From: Candidatus Manganitrophaceae bacterium
GTDB taxonomy: Bacteria; Nitrospirota; Nitrospiria; SBBL01; Manganitrophaceae
Length of the DNA: 64,000 bases
NCBI GenBank assembly: GCA_016200325.1
Contig: JACQEZ010000001.1
Coordinates: forward strand, 310,001 to 374,000
Reading direction: 5' to 3'
In this document: piece after piece, positions 9,640 to 20,488 of the stretch
How the letters are laid out: every line of letters starts with the position of its first letter
Numbering within the stretch: the stretch's first letter is position 1
The notes under the pieces: generated by a model
Databases searched by the model: none
The model's input: only the letters and a program-made list of their open reading frames with translations
What the model was told of the DNA's origin: nothing
Program-made: the position numbers and the translations under genes

Positions 9640-10314
9640 ATGGCAGCCGCAGGCAAGAAAGATAAAAAAATCGCGCCGTCGATTTTGTCGGCCGACTTCT
9701 CCCGTCTCGGAGAGGAGATTAAAGCGGTCGACGCCGCGGGCGCCGACTGGATTCATATCGACGTGATGGACGGGCGGTTCGTCCCGAACCTCACCGTCGG
9801 ACCGTTGATCGTCGAGGCGGCGAAGAAGGTGACCGCCCTTCCGCTCGATGTTCATCTGATGATCGTCGAGCCCGATCATCTGATCCCCGAATTTATCAAA
9901 GAGGGGGCGACCTCGGTGACGGTCCATGTGGAGGCCTGCACGCACCTCCATCGAACGGTTCAATTGATCAAACAAGAAGGGGCCCGCGCCGGGGTCTCAC
10001 TCAACCCGGGGACGCCGCTCTTCCTGATTGAAGAGATTTTGGGCGACATCGATCTTCTTTTATTGATGTCGGTCAATCCAGGCTTCGGCGGGCAGAAATT
10101 TATTCCGAAGGTCCTCGATAAGATCCGGGCCGCGCGGCAGATGATCGACACGCGGCGATTGGCGGTCGACCTTGAAGTCGACGGCGGCATCAAAACGAGC
10201 AATGCCCAGCGGCTCGCCGAGGCGGGGGTCGATGTTTTCGTGGCCGGCTCGGCGATCTTTGAAAGTCCCGACTACGGGAAGACGATCCACCAATTTCGAG
10301 AGGCCATCTCCTAA
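9640..10314 (+). CDS. rpe: ribulose-phosphate 3-epimerase
   Basis: Interconverts ribulose-5-phosphate and xylulose-5-phosphate in the pentose phosphate and Calvin pathways. A TIM barrel with the family motifs APSILSADF, HIDVMDGRFVPN (catalytic Asp and metal His region), DVHLMI, MSVNPGFGGQKF and VDGGI, then AGSAIF for phosphate binding. The length of 224 is standard. The ATG has an AGGAGGAAGA site and lies 10 bp after rsmB. Confidence 0.97.
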   Translation: MAAAGKKDKKIAPSILSADFSRLGEEIKAVDAAGADWIHIDVMDGRFVPNLTVGPLIVEAAKKVTALPLDVHLMIVEPDHLIPEFIKEGATSVTVHVEACTHLHRTVQLIKQEGARAGVSLNPGTPLFLIEEILGDIDLLLLMSVNPGFGGQKFIPKVLDKIRAARQMIDTRRLAVDLEVDGGIKTSNAQRLAEAGVDVFVAGSAIFESPDYGKTIHQFREAIS

Positions 10315-10354: not shown

Positions 10355-11929
10355 ATGATGGACGAAAATGAAATTCAAAAATTAGCCGAGAGCCTTCATC
10401 CGCTCGAGCGAAAAGTCCTTCCCCTCTTTCAGGGCGAAGCGGCGGTGAGCGAGGAGGATCTCCTCCGGCGCGATCCGTCGATTCAGCCCTCTCAGCTCTC
10501 GATGGCGCTCGGCTGGCTCCTAACCAAAGAGGTATTAAAGGTGGTCGAAGAGCGGCGGCAGGAATTCGTCCTCCTCACCGAGGTCGGCCGGTCGTACGCC
10601 GCGCAGAAAAATCCGGTGCTGCGGCTCGCCGAGGAGATCCGGCAGCGCGGGCAGGTTCCGATCCGGGAGCTGCAGCAGCGGACCGACCTGGAGGCGGAGG
10701 AGAAGAGCGCCGCAATCGGCGCGTTGAAGGAGACGGCCGCCGTCAGAGTGATCCCTGGAGGATTGCTTGAGTTGGCCGATCCGTCGAAGCTCGCCGAGTT
10801 CGAGCAACTTCAAGCGACGATCGAGCGGCTGAATGAACACACAGAGGAGACCGAGATCGCTGCCCTCTCTTCCGAAGATCAGGCGACCATTGCCGCGTAT
10901 CATCGAAAGCGGAGCAAGTCGAAAGGGGTCTTCCGGGTCAGCGAGCGGGTCAGCCGGAGCTATGCGCCGACCGAGCGTTTTGGACCGCTCTCTCAGCAGG
11001 CGCAATCGTCCGGCGGCGCGGAAGAGATCGGGACGCTGACCCCCGAGATGCTCAAAGAGGGGAGCTGGCGGGGAAAGCGGTTTCGGAAGTACAATATCCA
11101 ACTGCCTCCCCCCCGGATCGTCGGCGGAAGAAAACATCCCTATCGAAGCTTTCTCGACCAGGTGAAAGAAAAATTCGTCTCGATGGGGTTCGAGGAGATG
11201 CGCGGCCCCTTGGTCGAAAATGAATTCTGGGACATGGACGCGCTCTACATGCCGCAATTCCATCCGGCCCGGGAGATCCATGACGTTTACTTCGTCGACG
11301 GGGTCGACCGGTCGATTCCGGACGACGTGATCGGACGGGTCGCCGCGGCGCACCAGAACGGCGGAGAGACCGGCTCGCGCGGCTGGCGCTATCCCTTCGA
11401 CGTTCAGCGGACCCGCCGGCTCATTCTTCGAAGCCAGGGGACGGCGGTTTCCGCCCGGACGCTTGGCGCCGGGGCCAAGGTGCCGGGAAAATATTTCTCG
11501 ATCGCACGCTGTTTTCGATATGACCAGGTCGATGCCACGCACGCGCCCGACTTCTTTCAGGTCGAGGGGATCGTCCTCGGCGAAGAGATCCACTTCCGGA
11601 CTTTATTAGGCCTGTTGACCCTTTTCGCGAAAGAGATCGCCCGGGCGGAGGAGATCAAATTCCTCCCGGCCTACTTCCCCTTTACCGAGCCGTCGGTGGA
11701 GATGCATGTCCGCCACCCGAAGCTTGGATGGATGGAGCTTGGCGGGGCCGGCCTCTTCCGGCCGGAGCTGCGGAGCCCGCTTGGGGTTGATGTCCCGGTG
11801 ATCGCCTGGGGGTTGGGGCTCGACCGAATGGCGATGGTGGCGCTTGGGATTTCCGACATCCGGGATCTCTTCTCGCCCGATTTAGGATTCATCCGCGAAA
11901 AGCGAATTGTGCAAGAAGGGGTTGGATAA
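10355..11929 (+). CDS. pheS: phenylalanyl-tRNA synthetase alpha subunit, archaeal/eukaryotic type
   Basis: Charges tRNA-Phe together with PheT. The 524-residue protein is much longer than bacterial PheS (about 340). It carries an N-terminal winged-helix region (residues 1-100) and linker before the class II core, as in archaeal and cytosolic eukaryotic alpha subunits. Class II motifs are visible at HPYRSFLDQVKE (motif 1), RLILRSQGTAVSARTL (motif 2) and AWGLGLDRMAM (motif 3); WDMDALYMPQFHPAR is typical of this clade. The start is the first of two ATGs at 10355, 40 bp after rpe. The longer upstream frame runs inside rpe and is not coding. Confidence 0.93.
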   Translation: MMDENEIQKLAESLHPLERKVLPLFQGEAAVSEEDLLRRDPSIQPSQLSMALGWLLTKEVLKVVEERRQEFVLLTEVGRSYAAQKNPVLRLAEEIRQRGQVPIRELQQRTDLEAEEKSAAIGALKETAAVRVIPGGLLELADPSKLAEFEQLQATIERLNEHTEETEIAALSSEDQATIAAYHRKRSKSKGVFRVSERVSRSYAPTERFGPLSQQAQSSGGAEEIGTLTPEMLKEGSWRGKRFRKYNIQLPPPRIVGGRKHPYRSFLDQVKEKFVSMGFEEMRGPLVENEFWDMDALYMPQFHPAREIHDVYFVDGVDRSIPDDVIGRVAAAHQNGGETGSRGWRYPFDVQRTRRLILRSQGTAVSARTLGAGAKVPGKYFSIARCFRYDQVDATHAPDFFQVEGIVLGEEIHFRTLLGLLTLFAKEIARAEEIKFLPAYFPFTEPSVEMHVRHPKLGWMELGGAGLFRPELRSPLGVDVPVIAWGLGLDRMAMVALGISDIRDLFSPDLGFIREKRIVQEGVG

Positions 11930-12006
11930 AGAGAATGCGGATTTTGGACAGGTGGCCGCTCCTTTTCCTAGGCCATTGCGGAATGCGGAGTTAAAAACGG
12001 AAAGAT

Positions 12007-13704
12007 ATGCCGACGATTGAGATCAAGATTAGCGACTTTGAATCGCTCCTCGGAAAAAAAATCAGCGAGGCTGCACTGGAAACCCTGCTGGAACGGGTCA
12101 AGGGAGAGGTTAAAGACTTTCTTCCTAAAGAGGACACGGCCAAGATCGAGCTCAATGACAGCAACCGGCCCGACCTCTGGAGCCCGGAAGGGATTGCGCG
12201 ACAGATCCTGCTCATGGAATCGAAGGGAAAGGACTATCCTTTCTTCTCCCCTCAAAAGAGGTCGGCGGACCGGAAGGTCACGGTCGCCCAGGAGTTAAAG
12301 ACGATCCGTCCTTATCTGGCCGCCTGTGTATCGCGAGGGATGACGGTCACCGAGCCGATCTTGCTCCAGCTGATCCAGACGCAGGAGAAGCTCGCCGATA
12401 TCTTCGGGCGGAAGCGCCAGACCGTCTCGATCGGGCTGTACCGTCTTCCGAAAATAGTCTTCCCGGTCCGATATGAGACCGCCGATCCGGCGCAGACCCG
12501 CTTTACGCCGCTCGGATTCGACCAGCCGATGACCCTCGCGGAAATCGTGACGCGCCATCCGAAAGGGATTGCCTATGTCCCTACGTTAAAGGGGGCGACC
12601 CGTTATCCGATTCTGATCGATTCCAAAGATCAGATCCTCTCCTTTCCGCCGATCATCAACAGCCGGGAGATCGGCGAGGTCCAGGTCGGCGACGCGGACC
12701 TTTTTGTCGAGGTGACCGGCACCGACCTCCGGATGGTTGTCCTTGCGCTGAATATCTTCGCCTGCAACCTCGCCGACCGGGGGGCGACGATCGAGCCGGT
12801 GGCGGTTCAATTTCCCGAGGAGACCGAGCTCGGCCGCGAGGTCGTCATGCCGTTTGATCTCTCGTCGCCGCTGGAGGTGACGCTCGAAGAGATCAATCAG
12901 GTTTTGGGGGAGAAGATGACCGATGCAGAAGCCGTCTCGCTTCTCTCCCGTTATGGGTATACCGTCGCCGGCGGGAAAGAGCGCCTTCGTGTGACGGCGC
13001 CGCCGTACCGCGACGATACGATGCACCCGATCGATGTGATCGAAGATGTCGTCATCAGTCGGGGGATTGCGTCGTTTACGCCGGAGATGCCGTCGACCTT
13101 TACCGTCGGTTCGCTCTCGCCGCTGGAGCGGCGCGCCGATCGGCTTCGTGAGGAGATGGTGGGGCTCGGTTTTCAGGAGGTCTTCTCGAACGTCCTCGGC
13201 GCGCGGCAGGAGTTCGTCGAGCGGATGCGCATCGAGGGGGTCGGAAAAGGGCGGCCCGAGGCGCGATTGATCGAGATCAAGAATCCGATGACCGAGCGCT
13301 TCTCGGTCCTTCGCCCCTGGCTCCTCCCGTCGTTGATGCGGGTGGAGGGGGCGAGCTCCAAGGCGTATTATCCGCATCGGATCTTTGAGGTCGGGGAGGT
13401 GGCGCGGTGGACGGCATCGGGCCAAGAGACGGAGACGCGGGTGCTTCTGGCAGGATTGATCGCCCATCCGACCGCCAACTTCTCGGAGCTTCAGGCCGTC
13501 TTGGAGGCGCTTTTCTACAATCTCTCGCTTCGGTATCGGCTCGAAGCGCTCTCCCATCCGACGTTCATCGATGGGCGGGCCGGGGCGATCTTCATCGGGG
13601 AACGGGAAGTCGGCTTGATCGGGGAGATCGATCCGGACGTTCTGACCCGATGGCAGATCGGGATGCCGACCGTCACCTTTGAGATCAACCTCGAGTCACT
13701 TTAA
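12007..13704 (+). CDS. pheT: phenylalanyl-tRNA synthetase beta subunit, archaeal/eukaryotic type
   Basis: Partner of PheS. At 565 residues it lacks the roughly 200 extra residues of bacterial PheT: there is no N-terminal EMAP/tRNA-binding OB domain and no C-terminal anticodon-binding ferredoxin fold. It begins PTIEIKISDFESLLGK, as in archaeal beta subunits. It carries the B3/B4 editing region (RGATIEPVAVQF), the B5 domain (GYTVAGGKERLRVTAPPYR) and a catalytic-like core ending FIGEREVGLIGEIDPDVL. It lies 77 bp after pheS and is closed by a bidirectional terminator. Confidence 0.93.
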   Translation: MPTIEIKISDFESLLGKKISEAALETLLERVKGEVKDFLPKEDTAKIELNDSNRPDLWSPEGIARQILLMESKGKDYPFFSPQKRSADRKVTVAQELKTIRPYLAACVSRGMTVTEPILLQLIQTQEKLADIFGRKRQTVSIGLYRLPKIVFPVRYETADPAQTRFTPLGFDQPMTLAEIVTRHPKGIAYVPTLKGATRYPILIDSKDQILSFPPIINSREIGEVQVGDADLFVEVTGTDLRMVVLALNIFACNLADRGATIEPVAVQFPEETELGREVVMPFDLSSPLEVTLEEINQVLGEKMTDAEAVSLLSRYGYTVAGGKERLRVTAPPYRDDTMHPIDVIEDVVISRGIASFTPEMPSTFTVGSLSPLERRADRLREEMVGLGFQEVFSNVLGARQEFVERMRIEGVGKGRPEARLIEIKNPMTERFSVLRPWLLPSLMRVEGASSKAYYPHRIFEVGEVARWTASGQETETRVLLAGLIAHPTANFSELQAVLEALFYNLSLRYRLEALSHPTFIDGRAGAIFIGEREVGLIGEIDPDVLTRWQIGMPTVTFEINLESL

Positions 13705-13714
13705 GTCAAAAAAT

Positions 13715-13752
13715 AAAAAGGGCGCTGGATTTTTCGATCCACCGCCCTTTCC
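13715..13752. terminator. bidirectional terminator between pheT and rplT
   Basis: AAAGGGCG plus TGGAT pairs with ATCCA plus CGCCCTTT with a single mismatch. An A-rich tract on the pheT side serves the minus strand; on the plus strand the T run is short. It separates the convergent pheT and rplT genes. Confidence 0.75.
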
Positions 13753-13824: not shown

Positions 13825-14184
13825 TCAGGCTTTCAGCTGTGCCTGGGCTGCTGAAACGATCTGGCCGAATCCGTTGGCATCATGGGCCGCCATCTCGGCG
13901 AGGATTTTTCGATTCAGCAAGATTCCCGCTTTTCTTAACCCTTCCATGAACCGGCTGTAGGTCATTCCATGGCTACGGACCGCCGCATTGATTCGGGCAA
14001 TCCAGAGGCCTCTGAAGTCGCGCTTCTTTTGCCGCCGGTCACGGTAGGCGTAGAGAAGCGACTTATCGACCGCCTCGGTGGCGCTTCGATAGAGCCGGCT
14101 TTTGCCGCCATAGTACCCCTTCGCCATCTTCAGGCGATCTTTCCGCCGTTCTCGGGTCTTGGGACCCCCTTTTGCTCTAGGCAT
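13825..14184 (-). CDS. rplT: 50S ribosomal protein bL20
   Basis: A large-subunit assembly protein and, in many bacteria, translational repressor of its own operon. The 119-residue sequence begins [20 protein letters not shown] with the lysine/arginine-rich N-terminal arm and contains [15 protein letters not shown], diagnostic for L20. The ATG at 14184 is preceded by AAGGAG; the longer upstream frame overlaps rpmI and is rejected. Last gene of thrS-infC-rpmI-rplT. Confidence 0.97.
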
Positions 14185-14218
14185 TTTCCAACTCCTTTGT
14201 TCTTTAAATAGGGAGCGA

Positions 14219-14422
14219 CTACCTCTTGTATGGGAGGAGCCGTTCCATGATACGCGCATCGCCGCTATGGACTGGGACGGCTTTTCCAAGCGCCCGTTTC
14301 CGTTTCGCCGACTTGCTCGTGAGCAGGTGCCGCTTTCCGGCACGCCGCTGCATGACTTTGCCGGTGGCGGTCACCTTAAACCGTTTCGCGGCCCCCCGAT
14401 GCGTCTTCAGTTTTGCTTTCAT
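14219..14422 (-). CDS. rpmI: 50S ribosomal protein bL35
   Basis: A 67-residue basic protein, [21 protein letters not shown] at the N-terminus and [12 protein letters not shown] in the middle, typical of L35. The start codon overlaps the infC stop (ATGA), so the two are translationally coupled; AGGAGAG lies just upstream. Confidence 0.97.
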
Positions 14423-14943
14423 TTACTCTCCTTTACCGATTTTGGAACCATGATCATGGTCATGCTGTTTCCCTCCATCTTCGGAGGATATTCCGGCTGT
14501 CCCGATTCTAGCAGCGCCTGTTGAATCTTGCCCATAATCTCCCGTCCCTTCGGCTGGTAGGCCATCTCCCTGCCTCGGAACATCAGCGTGATCTTTACCT
14601 TATAGCCCTCTGCAAGAAATTCCTCTGCATGACGTATTTTGAAATCCTGATCGTGCTCTCCAGTGAAGAGCCGGAATTTCACCTCTTTGACATGCGTTCC
14701 CTTTTGATTCTGTTTGGCGGCATGGTCTTTCTTGCTCTGCTCATATTTGTACTTGCCGAAATCCATGATTCGGCAGACCGGAGGCGCCGACGTCGGAGCG
14801 ACCTCGACCAGGTCGAGCCCGTATTCTTCCGCTTTTTTGGTTGCATCCCGGGCCGACATGATGCCCAACTGTTCTCCCTCGGGTCCGATGACCCGAACCT
14901 CTCTTGCCCGGATTTCCAGATTGATTCTTAATTTTGCAGCGAT
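14419..14943 (-). CDS. infC: translation initiation factor IF-3, probable ATC start
   Basis: Prevents premature subunit joining and proofreads initiator tRNA and start codons. The first in-frame ATG (14868) would remove the conserved N-terminal stretch RINLEIRAREVRVIGPEGE. The frame continues upstream to an ATC at 14943-14941, placed 6 nt after AGGGAGG, giving 174 residues, the normal length. No ATG, GTG or TTG exists in the right place. Non-AUG starts (AUU, AUC, AUA) on infC are known and allow IF-3 to autoregulate. C-terminal landmarks include KEVKFR and the LMFRGREMAY region. It overlaps rpmI by 4 nt. Confidence 0.93.
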   Translation of the reverse strand: MAAKLRINLEIRAREVRVIGPEGEQLGIMSARDATKKAEEYGLDLVEVAPTSAPPVCRIMDFGKYKYEQSKKDHAAKQNQKGTHVKEVKFRLFTGEHDQDFKIRHAEEFLAEGYKVKITLMFRGREMAYQPKGREIMGKIQQALLESGQPEYPPKMEGNSMTMIMVPKSVKESK

Positions 14944-14997: not shown

Positions 14998-16905
14998 TTA
15001 AATGGCGCGTGTTGCAATCTCTTCCAAAATTTTTTTCTCGAAGGCGTCGAGCGTCATCCCACTGCTCTCCCCCGCCCGGTTTCGGACGGCCAGGGTCTGA
15101 TCGGCCGCTTCCCGATCGCCGACGACCAACATATAAGGGACTTTCATCAATTGGGCCTCTCGGATCTTCAGGCCGATCTTCTCATTCCGATCGTCAATGG
15201 CCGATCGAATCCCGGCCTCTCGAAGCCGCTGGTGGATCTGTCCTGCGTACTCCCGCTGGCGCTCGGTGATCGGGAGGATCTTCGCCTGAAGCGGCGCCAA
15301 CCAGACCGGAAAGGCCCCTGCATAGTGTTCGATGAGGACGCCGAAGAAGCGCTCAATCGAGCCCATCAGCGCGCGGTGAATCATGATCGGCTGGTGCTCT
15401 TTCCCATCCTCGCCGCGGTAGGTGATCCCGAAGCGTTCCGGAAGATTGAAGTCGATCTGAATCGTGGTGCACTGCCACGACCGTCCCAACGTATCTTTGA
15501 TCTTCATGTCGATCTTGGGGCCGTAGAAGACCCCCTCTCCCGGATCGATCTGATAGGCAAGCCCCTTCTGCTTCAGCGCCCCTTCCAGGGCCGAGGTCGC
15601 CTGCTCCCACCGCTCGGGACTCCCGACGAACTTTTCGGGACGGGTCGAGAGGTAAATGTCATAGCTCTCGAAGCCGAAGGTCTTTAAGACAAAGGTGGTA
15701 AAATCGAGAACCTTCAAGATCTCCGACTCGATCTGGTCGGGACGGCAGAAAAGATGGGCGTCATCTTGGGTGAACCCCCGGACCCGCAAGAGACCATGCA
15801 ACACCCCGGAGCGTTCATACCGGTAGACTGTTCCCAACTCGGCCCAGCGAAACGGGAGGTCCCGGTAGCTGCGAAGATGCGACTTGTAGATCATGATATG
15901 AAAAGGGCAGTTCATCGGCTTGAGCTCGAACGGCATCCCGTCGATGTCCATCGGCGCATACATGTTCTCTTTGTAGAACTCCAGATGGCCGCTCTGCTTC
16001 CAGAGGTCGAGTCGGGCGATGTGCGGGGAGAAGACCAACTCATACCCCGACTTCACGTGGGCTTCGCGCCAGAAGTCTTCGAGGGTCTTCCGGATAATCG
16101 CGCCGTTCGGGTGCCAGAGGACCAATCCGGGGCCGATCTCGTCGGAGAAGGAGAAGAGGTCGAGCTCTTTCCCGAGCTTTCGGTGGTCTCGCTTTTTAAT
16201 CTCTTCCAGCTTCTTTAGATGGGCATCGAGCTCGTCTTTCTTGGCAAAAGAGGTTCCGTAGATCCGCTGGAGCATCTTGTTCTTCTCGCTGCCGCGCCAA
16301 TAGGCGCCGGCGCTCGAGAGGAGCTTGAAGGCTTTGACCTTGCCGGTGGAGGGGAGATGCGGCCCCATGCAGAGGTCGATGAAGTCTCCTTGCCGATAGG
16401 CCGAGATCGGCGGTTCAATCTCTTCGATCAACTCGACTTTGTATGGCTCTCCACGCTCCTGAAAGAGCCGAATCGCTTCTTCTTTCGAAAGCTCCATCCG
16501 GAAAATTCGGAGATCGCGCTTGGTGATCTCCACCATCTTTGCTTCGACCTTCTCGAGGTCTTCGGGGGTAAAGGGGCGTTCGAAATCGAAATCGTAGTAG
16601 AAGCCTTCTTCAATGGCCGGGCCGATCGTCATTTTCGCGGTTGGAAAAACCTCTTTCACCGCCTGGGCCATGAGGTGGGCGGAGCTGTGGCGGTAGACCT
16701 CTTTCCCTTCCGGAGAGTCGAAAGTGAGGAAGGCGATCTCCGCATCTCCTTCGACCGCTGTCGAGAGGTCTCTCGGCTGACCGTTCACACGGACCGCGAT
16801 GACCTCTTTGAGTTTTCCGAGCGATTTGACCAGATCAAAAAAGGTGGTTCCGAGAGGAACTTTCTTCTCGGTCTGATTGTCTAATCGAAGTGTTGCCTCA
16901 GGCAT
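14998..16905 (-). CDS. thrS: threonyl-tRNA synthetase
   Basis: A class II synthetase of 635 residues: N-terminal TGS domain (LRLDNQTEKKVPLGTT), the editing N2 domain with HSSAHLMAQAV, the catalytic core with zinc cysteine in KPMNCPFHIM and motif 2 GLLRVRGFTQDDAH, and a C-terminal anticodon-binding domain (QAKILPITERQREYA). First gene of the thrS-infC-rpmI-rplT cluster, 54 bp upstream of infC. No strong ribosome site precedes the ATG, but the N-terminus fits the family. Confidence 0.97.
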   Translation of the reverse strand: MPEATLRLDNQTEKKVPLGTTFFDLVKSLGKLKEVIAVRVNGQPRDLSTAVEGDAEIAFLTFDSPEGKEVYRHSSAHLMAQAVKEVFPTAKMTIGPAIEEGFYYDFDFERPFTPEDLEKVEAKMVEITKRDLRIFRMELSKEEAIRLFQERGEPYKVELIEEIEPPISAYRQGDFIDLCMGPHLPSTGKVKAFKLLSSAGAYWRGSEKNKMLQRIYGTSFAKKDELDAHLKKLEEIKKRDHRKLGKELDLFSFSDEIGPGLVLWHPNGAIIRKTLEDFWREAHVKSGYELVFSPHIARLDLWKQSGHLEFYKENMYAPMDIDGMPFELKPMNCPFHIMIYKSHLRSYRDLPFRWAELGTVYRYERSGVLHGLLRVRGFTQDDAHLFCRPDQIESEILKVLDFTTFVLKTFGFESYDIYLSTRPEKFVGSPERWEQATSALEGALKQKGLAYQIDPGEGVFYGPKIDMKIKDTLGRSWQCTTIQIDFNLPERFGITYRGEDGKEHQPIMIHRALMGSIERFFGVLIEHYAGAFPVWLAPLQAKILPITERQREYAGQIHQRLREAGIRSAIDDRNEKIGLKIREAQLMKVPYMLVVGDREAADQTLAVRNRAGESSGMTLDAFEKKILEEIATRAI

Positions 16906-17213: not shown

Positions 17214-17798
17214 CTACTTCTTTTTCTTCTCCACGGTGATTTTCAGCTCCTTGATCTTTTTCCGAAGTGTATTGCGGTTCATCCCTAGAAGCTGGGCCGC
17301 CTGGATCTGGTTCCCTTCGGTTTCCTTTAAAGCCAAATTAATCAGTGGTTTTTCAAACTCCTGAATTAAAAGGCCGTAGAGATTCTTCATCTCGCAATTT
17401 TTTACTTTTTTGACGAAGACGGCGAGCTTCTTTTCAACCAGCTCGGCCAGATTCGGCTCGTGACCGTTCGCCTTCTCCAGGGCACCTTCTTTGGACTGGG
17501 CCGCTTTGGCATGGAGCACCGAAGCCGTGTCGCGGATCTGCTTGATCGTCTTCTTCAGCAACGGGGCCGGGGCGAGGATCGTATAGAATTCCTGGCCTTC
17601 TTCTTGAAGCTTCTGAACCTGTTTGATCTCCCGATCCCACTCTCCCTCTGTGTTGATAATGACGAGGTGATGGCCGTTCTTGGCTTGCGTCTTCGTCAGC
17701 TGAGAGAAGGACGTCGTGTTTCCGGTTTTTCCAATCTCTTTTTCAAAAAGATTAGAGAGCTCCGCGTCTCTGCGGGCAAGGATAATATCTGGGACCAT
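17214..17798 (-). CDS. Fis-type DNA-binding protein with degenerate receiver-like N-terminus
   Basis: A 194-residue protein. The C-terminal 45 residues form a Fis/NtrC-type HTH (LALKETEGNQIQAAQLLGMN followed by RNTLRKKIKEL). The N-terminal 110 residues have receiver-like spacing (PDIILARRDAELSNLFEKE, HHLVIINTEG), but the phospho-acceptor aspartate at the end of the third strand is replaced (IINTEG). There is no AAA+ sigma54 domain between the halves, so it is not an NtrC activator. It ends in a lysine run. It lies 74 bp downstream of clpB on the same strand. The target is unknown. Confidence 0.85.
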   Translation of the reverse strand: MVPDIILARRDAELSNLFEKEIGKTGNTTSFSQLTKTQAKNGHHLVIINTEGEWDREIKQVQKLQEEGQEFYTILAPAPLLKKTIKQIRDTASVLHAKAAQSKEGALEKANGHEPNLAELVEKKLAVFVKKVKNCEMKNLYGLLIQEFEKPLINLALKETEGNQIQAAQLLGMNRNTLRKKIKELKITVEKKKK

Positions 17799-17872: not shown

Positions 17873-20488
17873 TTATTGCTTGTCAATAGTTTTATGAGAC
17901 TCGGATAGGGTATGGAATGTAATTCGATTGTCTTCGATATCGACCTCGATTCGGTCTCCTTCTTTGAAGGCCCCTTCCAGCAGCTTCGCCGAGAGGGGAT
18001 TCAGAATATCCCGCTCGATCACCCGTTTGAGCGGCCGTGCGCCGAAGACGGGATCATACCCCTCCCGGGCGAGGTATTTCTTCGCCTCAGGGGTGAGAAT
18101 CAGCTCAATCCGCTTATGCATCAGTCGCTCCTTCAGGCGTTTCATCTGGATATCTATAATCTGCTCCAATTGCTCTATCTGGAGCGGGTGGAAGATGATG
18201 ATGTCGTCGATCCGGTTGAGAAATTCAGGCCGGAAGGCGGTCCGCAGTAGACGGAGTACCTCGTTCTTCATCTCCCGTTCGTTGCCGCTCAATTCTTGGA
18301 TCTGCTGGCTGCCGATATTCGATGTCATGATCAAGATGGAGTTTTTGAAATCGACCGTTCGACCTTTGCCGTCGGTCAGCCGTCCGTCGTCCAAGACCTG
18401 GAGCAAAATGCTGAAGACATCGGGGTGCGCTTTCTCGATTTCGTCAAAGAGAATGACCGAGTAGGGACGCCGCCGGACCGCTTCGGTCAGCTGGCCTCCC
18501 TCTTCGTATCCGACATAGCCCGGAGGGGCGCCGATCAGCCGGGCGACGGCATGTTTCTCCATATACTCCGACATGTCGATCCGGATGAGCGCCTGCTCGT
18601 CGTCAAAGAGAAATTCAGCCAGCGCGCGCGCCAGCTCCGTTTTGCCGACGCCGGTCGGACCGAGAAAGATAAAGGAGCCGAGGGGACGGTTCGGGTCGGA
18701 GATGCCGGCCCGGGCGCGGCGGATCGCGTTGGAGACGGCGGTGATCGCCTCCGCCTGATCGACGACCCGCTCATGCAGACGCTCTTCCATATGAATCAGC
18801 TTTTGAACCTCCCCCTCGAGCAGCCGGGTCACCGGAATGCCACTCCATTTGGCGATGATCTCGGCGATGTCTTCCTCATCGACCTCTTCTTTCAACATCT
18901 TCTGCTCGGCCTGCAGCTCCTGGAGGCGGCGATTCTCCTCGGTGAGCTGTTTTTCAAGGCTGATCAGCTTGCCGTAGCGGAGCTCCGCCGCTTTCCCGAG
19001 ATCGCCGGCCCGCTCGGCCTGCTCGGCTTCGATCCGGGTCTGCTCGATCTGCTCTTTCAGGCTCCGGATCTTTTGAATCTCCTCTTTCTCCAGCTTCCAG
19101 TGGGCCGAGAGGCGATTCGCCTCTTCTTTCAGATCGGCGAGCTCTTTTTCTATTTTCTGCAATCGTTCTTTGGAGGCTGAATCTTTTTCCTTCTTGACCG
19201 CTTCCATTTCGATTTCGAGCTGGCGGATTCTTCTCTGGATTTCATCGAGCTCGGTCGGCATTGAGTCGATCTCCATCCGGAGGCGAGAGGCCGACTCATC
19301 GATCAGATCGATCGCCTTGTCCGGAAGAAAACGATCGGCGAGATACCGGTGCGATAAAACGGCGGCGGCGACCAACGCGGCATCCTTGATCCGAACGCCG
19401 TGGTGGACCTCGTACTTTTCTTTCAGACCGCGCAAGATCGAGATCGTCTGCTCCACGGTCGGCTCCTGGACGAGAACCGGCTGGAACCGCCGCTCCAGGG
19501 CGGGATCTTTCTCGATGTGTTTTCGGAATTCATCGATCGTCGTGGCGCCGACGCACCGCAGCTCTCCGCGGGCGAGCGGCGGCTTCAACATGTTGGAGGC
19601 ATCCATCGCCCCTTCGGCCGCGCCTGCGCCGACCAGCGTGTGGAGCTCGTCGATGAAGAGGATGACCGCCCCTTGGGCATCGACCACCTCTTTGATTACC
19701 GCCTTCAGCCGTTCCTCGAATTCTCCTCGAAATTTCGCGCCGGCGATCAATGCGCCCATATCGAGGGCATGGACTTTTTTATTTTTTAGGCTTTCCGGGA
19801 CATCGCCCGAGACGATTCGCTGCGCCAGCCCTTCGACGATGGCGGTTTTACCGACCCCCGGCTCGCCGATCAAGACCGGGTTATTTTTGGTCCGCCGGGA
19901 GAGGACCTGGATGACGCGGCGGATCTCGTCGTCTCGGCCGACGACCGGATCGAGCTTCCCCCGCCGGGCAAGGTCGGTCAAATCGCGCGAGTATCGGGCG
20001 AGCGCCTGATATTTCTCCTCGGGATTCTGATCGGTGACGCGATGCGAGCCGCGGATCTCGGCGAGGACGGAAAGGACCTTGTCCCGCTGAATCCCGAACG
20101 AGGAGAGGATGGAGCTGACCGTACTCTTGTTATCGAGCAAGGCTAAAAAAAGATGTTCGGTGCTGACATATTCATCTTTCAATTGCTCAGCCTCTTTCTC
20201 GGCGCGATCGAGAAGGGCGGCCAAGTTGGGGGTGATGTAGACCGAGCCGACCGCCCCCGGTCCCTGGACTTCAGGGATGCCCTTTAGCCGCTCATTGAGC
20301 TTGGCCCGGAGCGCGTCGAGCGGAACGCCTATTTTTTTAAGGAGATTAGGGACAATCCCTTCCTTTTGATCGATGAGGGCGAGTGCTAAATGAACCTCGT
20401 CGATCTGCTGGTGGTGAGATGCCTCCGCCTTTTTTTGGGCCTCTTGAAAGGCCTCTTGTGCCTTGAGTGTCAGTCGGTCTAAGCGCAT
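17873..20488 (-). CDS. clpB: ATP-dependent disaggregase ClpB
   Basis: A hexameric AAA+ disaggregase that works with DnaK. 871 residues: N domain ([14 protein letters not shown]), first AAA+ module with GEPGVGKT and the FIDELHT Walker B, the long coiled-coil M domain (about 410-530) that distinguishes ClpB from ClpA/C, and a second AAA+ module with [14 protein letters not shown] and LFDEIEKAH. The pore loops are [11 protein letters not shown] and [13 protein letters not shown]. No ClpP-binding IGF/L loop was noticed. AGGGAGG precedes the ATG. The promoter looks like sigma70; no sigma32 or CIRCE element was seen. Confidence 0.97.

Follow-up and report, generated by a model that had tools for sequence, protein, structure and literature searches.

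Positions 10355 to 13704 of a 64,000-nucleotide stretch from a Candidatus Manganitrophaceae bacterium of the phylum Nitrospirota (contig JACQEZ010000001.1, positions 310,001 to 374,000; the whole stretch is called the window here) hold a pheS-pheT gene pair, pheST, which is confirmed as a phenylalanyl-tRNA synthetase (PheRS) of the archaeal/eukaryotic type. The explanation that best covers the results as a whole, and that we regard as highly probable, is that this pair is the sole PheRS of its genome, that it goes back to an old acquisition within the Nitrospirota, and that the host's bacterial tRNA-Phe was kept. Judged from its sequence, its activity would be ordinary and its type is a known one; what is unusual is the host.

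Enzyme type and copy number

Profile scores place both subunits in the archaeal type, and they are so high that chance is not an issue. In particular, PheS scores 545 bits to NF003210 (PRK04172) over residues 13-518 and 279 bits to PF01409; PheT scores 483 bits over its full length to TIGR00471 (pheT_arch, cut-off 283), against 132 bits to TIGR00472 (pheT_bact), which is under the cut-off of 403. Pfam domains matched in PheT are B1 (weakly), B5 and CLM, and neither PF01588 (EMAP-like, B2) nor PF03147 (FDX-ACB, B8) gives a match at E <= 0.001; E. coli PheT, the positive control, carries both. The lack of the C-terminal anticodon-binding domain B8 defines the archaeal/eukaryotic beta subunit (PMC3275996), while absence of B2 is not exclusive to this type, as one bacterial-type relative is also without it. 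The features of the pair are as follows.

10355 to 11929, plus strand: pheS, archaeal/eukaryotic-type PheRS alpha subunit, 524 aa, catalytic core at about residues 245-515 (NF003210, PF01409)
10355 to 11014, plus strand: PheS N-terminal extension, spanning about residues 1-220 and predicted to consist of winged-helix-like units resembling a DNA-binding domain (AlphaFold2 model, FARSA alignment)
12007 to 13704, plus strand: pheT, archaeal-type beta subunit, 565 aa, with B1, B3/B4, B5 and CLM and without B2 or B8 (TIGR00471, 2cxi_A)
12640 to 12717, plus strand: editing-site segment of PheT, residues 212-237 (S212, N218, E235, T237; Pyrococcus horikoshii alignment)

PheT is 38.8% identical to its P. 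horikoshii counterpart (345 residues), 24.0% to that of E. coli, and 25.5-28.7% to those of two bacterial-type Nitrospirota relatives. Its residues S212, N218, E235 and T237 align with P. horikoshii S211, N217, D234 and T236, and all four are invariant in alignments of 14 and of 18 sequences. We take S211, D234 and T236 to be editing-site positions in P. horikoshii. N218 is the counterpart of P. horikoshii Asn217, which replaces bacterial His261 in the editing site (PMC3275996). As the pair is the only PheRS copy in the genome, its presence implies that the enzyme would both aminoacylate tRNA-Phe with phenylalanine and edit Tyr-tRNA-Phe.

The predicted structures agree with this assignment. 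A PheT model built from 18 sequences (mean pLDDT, the predicted local distance difference test score, of 81) matches the P. horikoshii beta fragment 2cxi_A with Z 42.8 over 342 residues (root-mean-square deviation, rmsd, 1.8), human FARSB with Z 38.1 over 544 residues (rmsd 7.3), and the best bacterial chain with Z 22.3 over 502 residues (rmsd 8.6). The AlphaFold2 model of PheS has a mean pLDDT of 62 overall, with a poor catalytic core below 50 in long stretches, and only its N-terminal part was used. There, residues 1-220 are modelled as winged-helix-like units, with pLDDT of 71-93 in most blocks, and match residues 3-188 of human FARSA with Z 10.3 over 180 residues (rmsd 3.9). Unrelated winged-helix proteins reach equal scores, over shorter stretches or single units, so that the match speaks for the fold and not for kinship; Pfam winged-helix profiles give only sub-threshold matches (PF10771, E 0.027). 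PheS is thus predicted to carry the N-terminal alpha extension of three DNA-binding-like folds that is found in the archaeal/eukaryotic PheRS family, PheRS-A.

The subunit trees were quick searches with Shimodaira-Hasegawa-like approximate likelihood ratio (SH-aLRT) support only and a few PDB rows as references. The PheT tree held 11 archaeal-type Nitrospirota, 13 bacterial-type rows (11 Nitrospirota, E. coli and Fusobacterium) and two references, human and the half-length P. horikoshii fragment; the PheS tree held 12 bacterial-type rows (genome G032 gave no match) and a single reference, human, with no archaeal PheS. In both trees, a branch with support 100 separates the bacterial-type rows from the rest, the window's PheS and PheT group with the archaeal/eukaryotic-type rows, and another branch, with support 99, sets apart the archaeal-type Nitrospirota (11 rows in each tree). 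Being quick and having few references, the trees settle the enzyme type and not the donor. A search by tblastn for archaeal or spirochaete PheRS among plasmid and phage records returned bacterial matches only among the matches listed, and two scans of viral contigs with the PheT and PheS alignments gave no confirmed match. The sequence-only reading of the window had taken a long PheS with an N-terminal winged-helix region and a 565-residue PheT without the EMAP and anticodon-binding domains as the layout of archaeal and cytosolic enzymes; both reading frames were confirmed at their coordinates, the PheS region is borne out by the model as far as a prediction can, and neither subunit falls inside the bacterial clade.

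That reading had also supposed, from the neighbouring housekeeping genes, that displacement of the bacterial form is complete, and this agrees with the domain content of the genome (4.21 Mb, completeness 99.42): it contains one B5 domain, one PheS core domain (PF01409) and no FDX-ACB domain. Accordingly, no bacterial-type pheT was found, nor any sign of a second, hidden bacterial pheST. The neighbours are indeed bacterial, with def-fmt-rsmB-rpe on one side and rplT-infC-thrS on the other. A binning or assembly error that placed an archaeal contig in a bacterial bin would be conceivable for an assembly in 20 contigs, but its probability is negligible: the pair lies inside a 492 kb contig between these bacterial neighbours, and it occupies the identical location in Ca. 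Manganitrophus GAC4 and Nitrospira moscoviensis, whose chromosomes are complete. This explanation was rejected as well.

Distribution and gene order across Nitrospirota

The two enzyme types divide the phylum by family. Among 148 genomes sampled over the Nitrospirota, in 27 families coded f1-f27, 91 carry a PheT above the pheT_arch cut-off and 49 one above the pheT_bact cut-off. The archaeal type is found in 11 of the 27 families (f1-f8, f11, f14 and f15) and the bacterial type in the other 16 (f9, f10, f12, f13 and f16-f27); no family code mixes the two. Genomes with a PheT fragment or none (e.g. G016, G034, G035, G066, G084, G101 and G122) were typed by family, after which 95 genomes count as archaeal-type and 53 as bacterial-type. 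The FDX-ACB domain follows the same division, occurring in 50 of the 148 genomes, that is, in 50 of 53 from bacterial-type families and in 0 of 95 of the archaeal type. Families f1-f6 make up the window's class, Nitrospiria, in which 40 of 40 genomes are archaeal-type; the closest genome with a name is Candidatus Manganitrophus sp. GAC4, at 83% PheT identity. Divergence is much greater in f15, which stands at 43% to the window. We take f15 to be probably Leptospirillum-like and f21 Thermodesulfovibrio-like. One genome, G122 (f24, completeness 100), lacks FDX-ACB and yielded neither type of PheT, probably owing to an assembly gap.

The bacterial-type enzymes are themselves varied. A bacterial-type PheT in G079 (L128:1492-3570, minus strand) is without PF01588 and has FDX-ACB. 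In most bacterial-type families PheT is about 690-730 aa long, a length suggesting a form without B2, and in f9 and f12 it has the full length of about 800 aa; B2 and FDX-ACB content was checked on loci L128 and L112, and the other bacterial-type relatives were judged by length. There are thus three PheRS layouts within one phylum. Loss of B2 has been reported in bacteria of the candidate phyla radiation (CPR; PMC5370408).

The surroundings of pheST in the window consist of these features.

9640 to 10314, plus strand: rpe, ribulose-phosphate 3-epimerase, directly upstream of pheS (TIGR01163)
13717 to 13750, no strand assigned: stem-loop between the convergent pheT and rplT (-20 kcal/mol, z -5.5)
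13825 to 14184, minus strand: rplT, ribosomal protein L20, tail to tail with pheT (TIGR01032; residues 54-166 of the longer open reading frame (ORF) 13825-14343)
14419 to 14868, minus strand: infC, initiation factor IF-3, as the listed ORF; the native start may be further upstream (TIGR00168)
14998 to 16905, minus strand: thrS, threonyl-tRNA synthetase (TIGR00418)

Ahead of rpe, the plus strand carries def, fmt, htpX and rsmB. The stem-loop is A-rich on its left and hence followed by a U-rich run on the minus strand, and is read as the terminator of the rplT operon. In windows along pheST, G+C is 58-63%, compared with 57-62% in the preceding plus-strand genes; base composition close to that of the neighbours gives no sign of a recent arrival.

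This arrangement is widespread among the archaeal-type loci. Convergent rplT follows pheT in 65 of 80 named loci and is outside the stretch in 15; 10 of these 15 stretches end within 6 kb of pheT, and in L004, L006, L025, L056 and L069 rplT was not found though 10 kb are present. Directly upstream of pheS, rpe is found in 73 of the 80 and is outside the stretch in 7. Further, among 20 archaeal-type stretches from outside the class, the rplT convergence recurs in 10 (f8, f14 and f15) and the rpe-pheS junction in 6 (f7 and f14); neither was found in the four stretches from f11, three of which reach at least 7.9 kb downstream. In 20 bacterial-type stretches, rplT lies upstream on the same strand in 14, is outside the stretch in 6, and is never convergent. 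Their order, rplT-pheS-pheT, is that of E. coli (thrS-infC-rpmI-rplT-pheM-pheS-pheT). The incoming pair adjoins rplT where the bacterial pair would have come, but in the opposite direction. At locus L155 of the bacterial-type genome G128, the neighbours of the thrS-to-pheT operon are def-fmt-rpe; as a conjecture, pheST could have been exchanged where the thrS operon meets def-fmt-rpe. The replacement also provides a gene-order marker of old relationships in the Nitrospirota.

Proposed acquisition history

The proposed history begins with an ancient ancestor inside the Nitrospirota, which would have gained pheST from a donor on the archaeal side and handed it down mostly by vertical inheritance. 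The incoming pair would have settled after rpe, tail to tail with rplT, and the bacterial pheST, which follows rplT in the bacterial-type relatives, would have been lost. In the acquired enzyme, PheS would supply the active site and the winged-helix N-terminal extension, and PheT the editing domain for Tyr-tRNA(Phe) with no B8; the PheS extension may hold the tRNA in place of B8, as the analogy with the human enzyme suggests. The host tRNA-Phe would have been kept by an enzyme able, or adapted, to charge it.

Several results weigh against a single old event. The species tree, a quick LG+G4 tree of RpoB and RpoC with 40 Nitrospirota and 5 outgroup rows, needs three type changes as found, with f11 among the bacterial-type families f9 and f13; unless that tree is wrong, the placement of f11 and its lack of shared junctions call for more than one event or for a transfer within the phylum. 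The deep order of the phylum and its root are uncertain in this quick tree with long outgroup branches. In addition, the archaeal references are limited to one half-length PheT, with no PheS, and the subunit trees leave the source of the f11 pair without resolution.

If different Nitrospirota classes had received pheST separately, in several transfers from archaea or from other bacterial phyla, this would explain the three changes, the position and bare junctions of f11, and the divergence of f15, and yet we consider it unlikely. The archaeal-type Nitrospirota stay together in both subunit trees, few as the references are; the rplT convergence is common to f8, f14 and f15 and the rpe junction to f7 and f14, and junctions shared across families are not expected from separate transfers. 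Moreover, the approximately unbiased (AU) test on the RpoB and RpoC tree does not reject one clade of the archaeal-type families minus f11 (p 0.42), nor one clade of all archaeal-type families (p 0.111). Alternatively, the common ancestor of the phylum would already have had the archaeal type, and the families with the bacterial type would have reverted later, regaining a bacterial pheST together with its place after rplT. Archaeal-type families are basal on the outgroup-rooted tree, as this would predict, but the rooting depends on the long outgroup branches, and the bacterial-type families keep the E. coli-like order (14 of 20 stretches, rplT being outside the stretch in 6); regaining that exact place is hard to envisage, which leaves this history quite improbable. 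It is simplest to assume a single old acquisition, with pheST passing into f11 later on, inside the phylum.

As a separate observation, RpoB in f15 (L279, L280 and L281) measures about 1,725 aa and RpoC about 1,590 aa, compared with about 1,320 and 1,390 in other families; each is some 200-400 residues longer, and the RpoB model match is split around an insertion.

The tRNA-Phe and known counterparts

The mismatch between enzyme and tRNA is the part most worth following. By our numbering, the tRNA-Phe of the window's genome has U20, G44, U45, U59, U60 and A73. Bacterial determinants of tRNA-Phe include U20, U45, U59 and A26:G44, and archaea and eukaryotes have G20 (PMC9976931); archaeal and bacterial PheRS/tRNA-Phe pairs have been reported not to cross-react (PMC3275996). 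The bacterial determinants therefore indicate that the host tRNA was kept despite the foreign enzyme. Across the 148 genomes, the U20 pattern matches 117, and its variant allowing A, C or G at position 20 matches 14, all with C20 and all Nitrospiria; G20 or A20 matched in none of the 148, and 17 genomes fit neither pattern. When these 17 were searched with the window's tRNA, four gave partial matches and none a readable tRNA-Phe. The 95 archaeal-type genomes divide into 66 with U20, 14 with C20 and 15 unread, and the 53 bacterial-type genomes into 51 with U20, none with C20 and 2 unread.

Full tRNAs were read at 109 loci, which yielded 104, with none at five; 14 of other lengths stand outside the position count. 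The 109 loci are fewer than the 131 pattern-matched genomes, and some archaeal-type U20 genomes are not among them. In the archaeal-type tRNAs of 76 nt, G44, U45, U59, U60 and A73 are bacterial in 52 of 52, so that there is no sign of the tRNA having been replaced together with the enzyme; pair flips in the anticodon stem (C27-G43 and C30-G40) occur in 20 of the 52. The f14 tRNA-Phe (L213-L219) has a GGGCTCT acceptor stem and A57, compared with GCCGAG(A/G) in the other archaeal-type tRNAs.

The archaeal-type enzyme may have done more than take over a bacterial tRNA with which enzymes of its kind reportedly do not cross-react. Within Nitrospiria, U20 could then have lost its role and become free to vary, with several switches between U20 and C20, in which case the enzyme replacement would have rewritten a tRNA identity rule and a large part of the phylum would preserve a natural record of that change; we put this forward only tentatively. 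C20 is found in 14 of 80 readable archaeal-type genomes and in 0 of 51 bacterial-type genomes (Fisher p 0.0008, uncorrected for kinship), and an RpoB tree with 60 rows requires at least six changes at position 20, at least four of which are forced by well-supported branches. Both results speak against plain drift unrelated to the enzyme, a rival to this last step only and a plausible one, though short of probable. In favour of drift, f7, f8, f11, f14 and f15 keep U20 with the same enzyme type and C20 is limited to one class, and the bacterial-type genomes vary too, with C59 instead of U59 in 3 of 38 tRNAs. Persistence of U20 in 66 archaeal-type genomes also suggests that it may still matter.

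As for precedents, the spirochaetes Spirochaeta, Treponema and Borrelia have an archaeal-type PheRS (Andam and Gogarten 2011, PMC3191353), as the sequence-only reading had noted. There too (alpha 513-528 aa, beta 514-573 aa), both subunits together have taken the place of the bacterial enzyme in some members of a phylum; the phylum is another one, and the nearest archaea in that case were the Thermococcales. The terms Nitrospira, Nitrospirae, Leptospirillum, tRNAPhe and identity element do not appear in that paper, and no description of archaeal-type PheRS in Nitrospirota was found in the open-licence literature searched, which is weak evidence of absence. In layout, profile, tree position and editing residues, the enzyme is like the PheRS-A family (AARS Online, PMC11580382; structures 2cxi and 3l4g); unlike there, its tRNA-Phe has the bacterial U20, or C20, and not G20. 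With the bacterial-type enzyme (PheRS-B) of other Nitrospirota families it shares task, phylum and tRNA type, but PheRS-B has FDX-ACB, follows rplT and differs in PheT to the extent given above (25.5-28.7% identity). CPR bacteria with archaeal-type TyrRS or TrpRS are likewise bacteria with archaeal-type synthetases, but their tRNA identity is reported to be archaeal too (PMC5370408), whereas that of the Nitrospirota stayed bacterial. The Nitrospirota are a second, old and wide case of such a swap, not a new kind of thing. They extend the replacement from spirochaetes to 11 of 27 families and 95 of 148 genomes, including Nitrospira, and offer a natural test of how a synthetase of a different tRNA-binding design copes with the tRNA of another domain.

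The distribution also bears on phylogenetic markers. The Nitrospira loci examined are archaeal-type, and Thermodesulfovibrio presumably belongs to a bacterial-type family, by our own reading of the family codes. If so, pheS and pheT would mislead as markers in the Nitrospirota; pheS is among the 24 marker genes of a tree with Ca. Nitrospira defluvii and Thermodesulfovibrio (PMC3636077).

Further along the minus strand of the window, positions 17214-17798 encode a 194-aa protein whose C-terminal part is a Fis-like DNA-binding region, scoring below the Fis cut-off; the adjoining ORF at 17873-20488 we take to be clpB.

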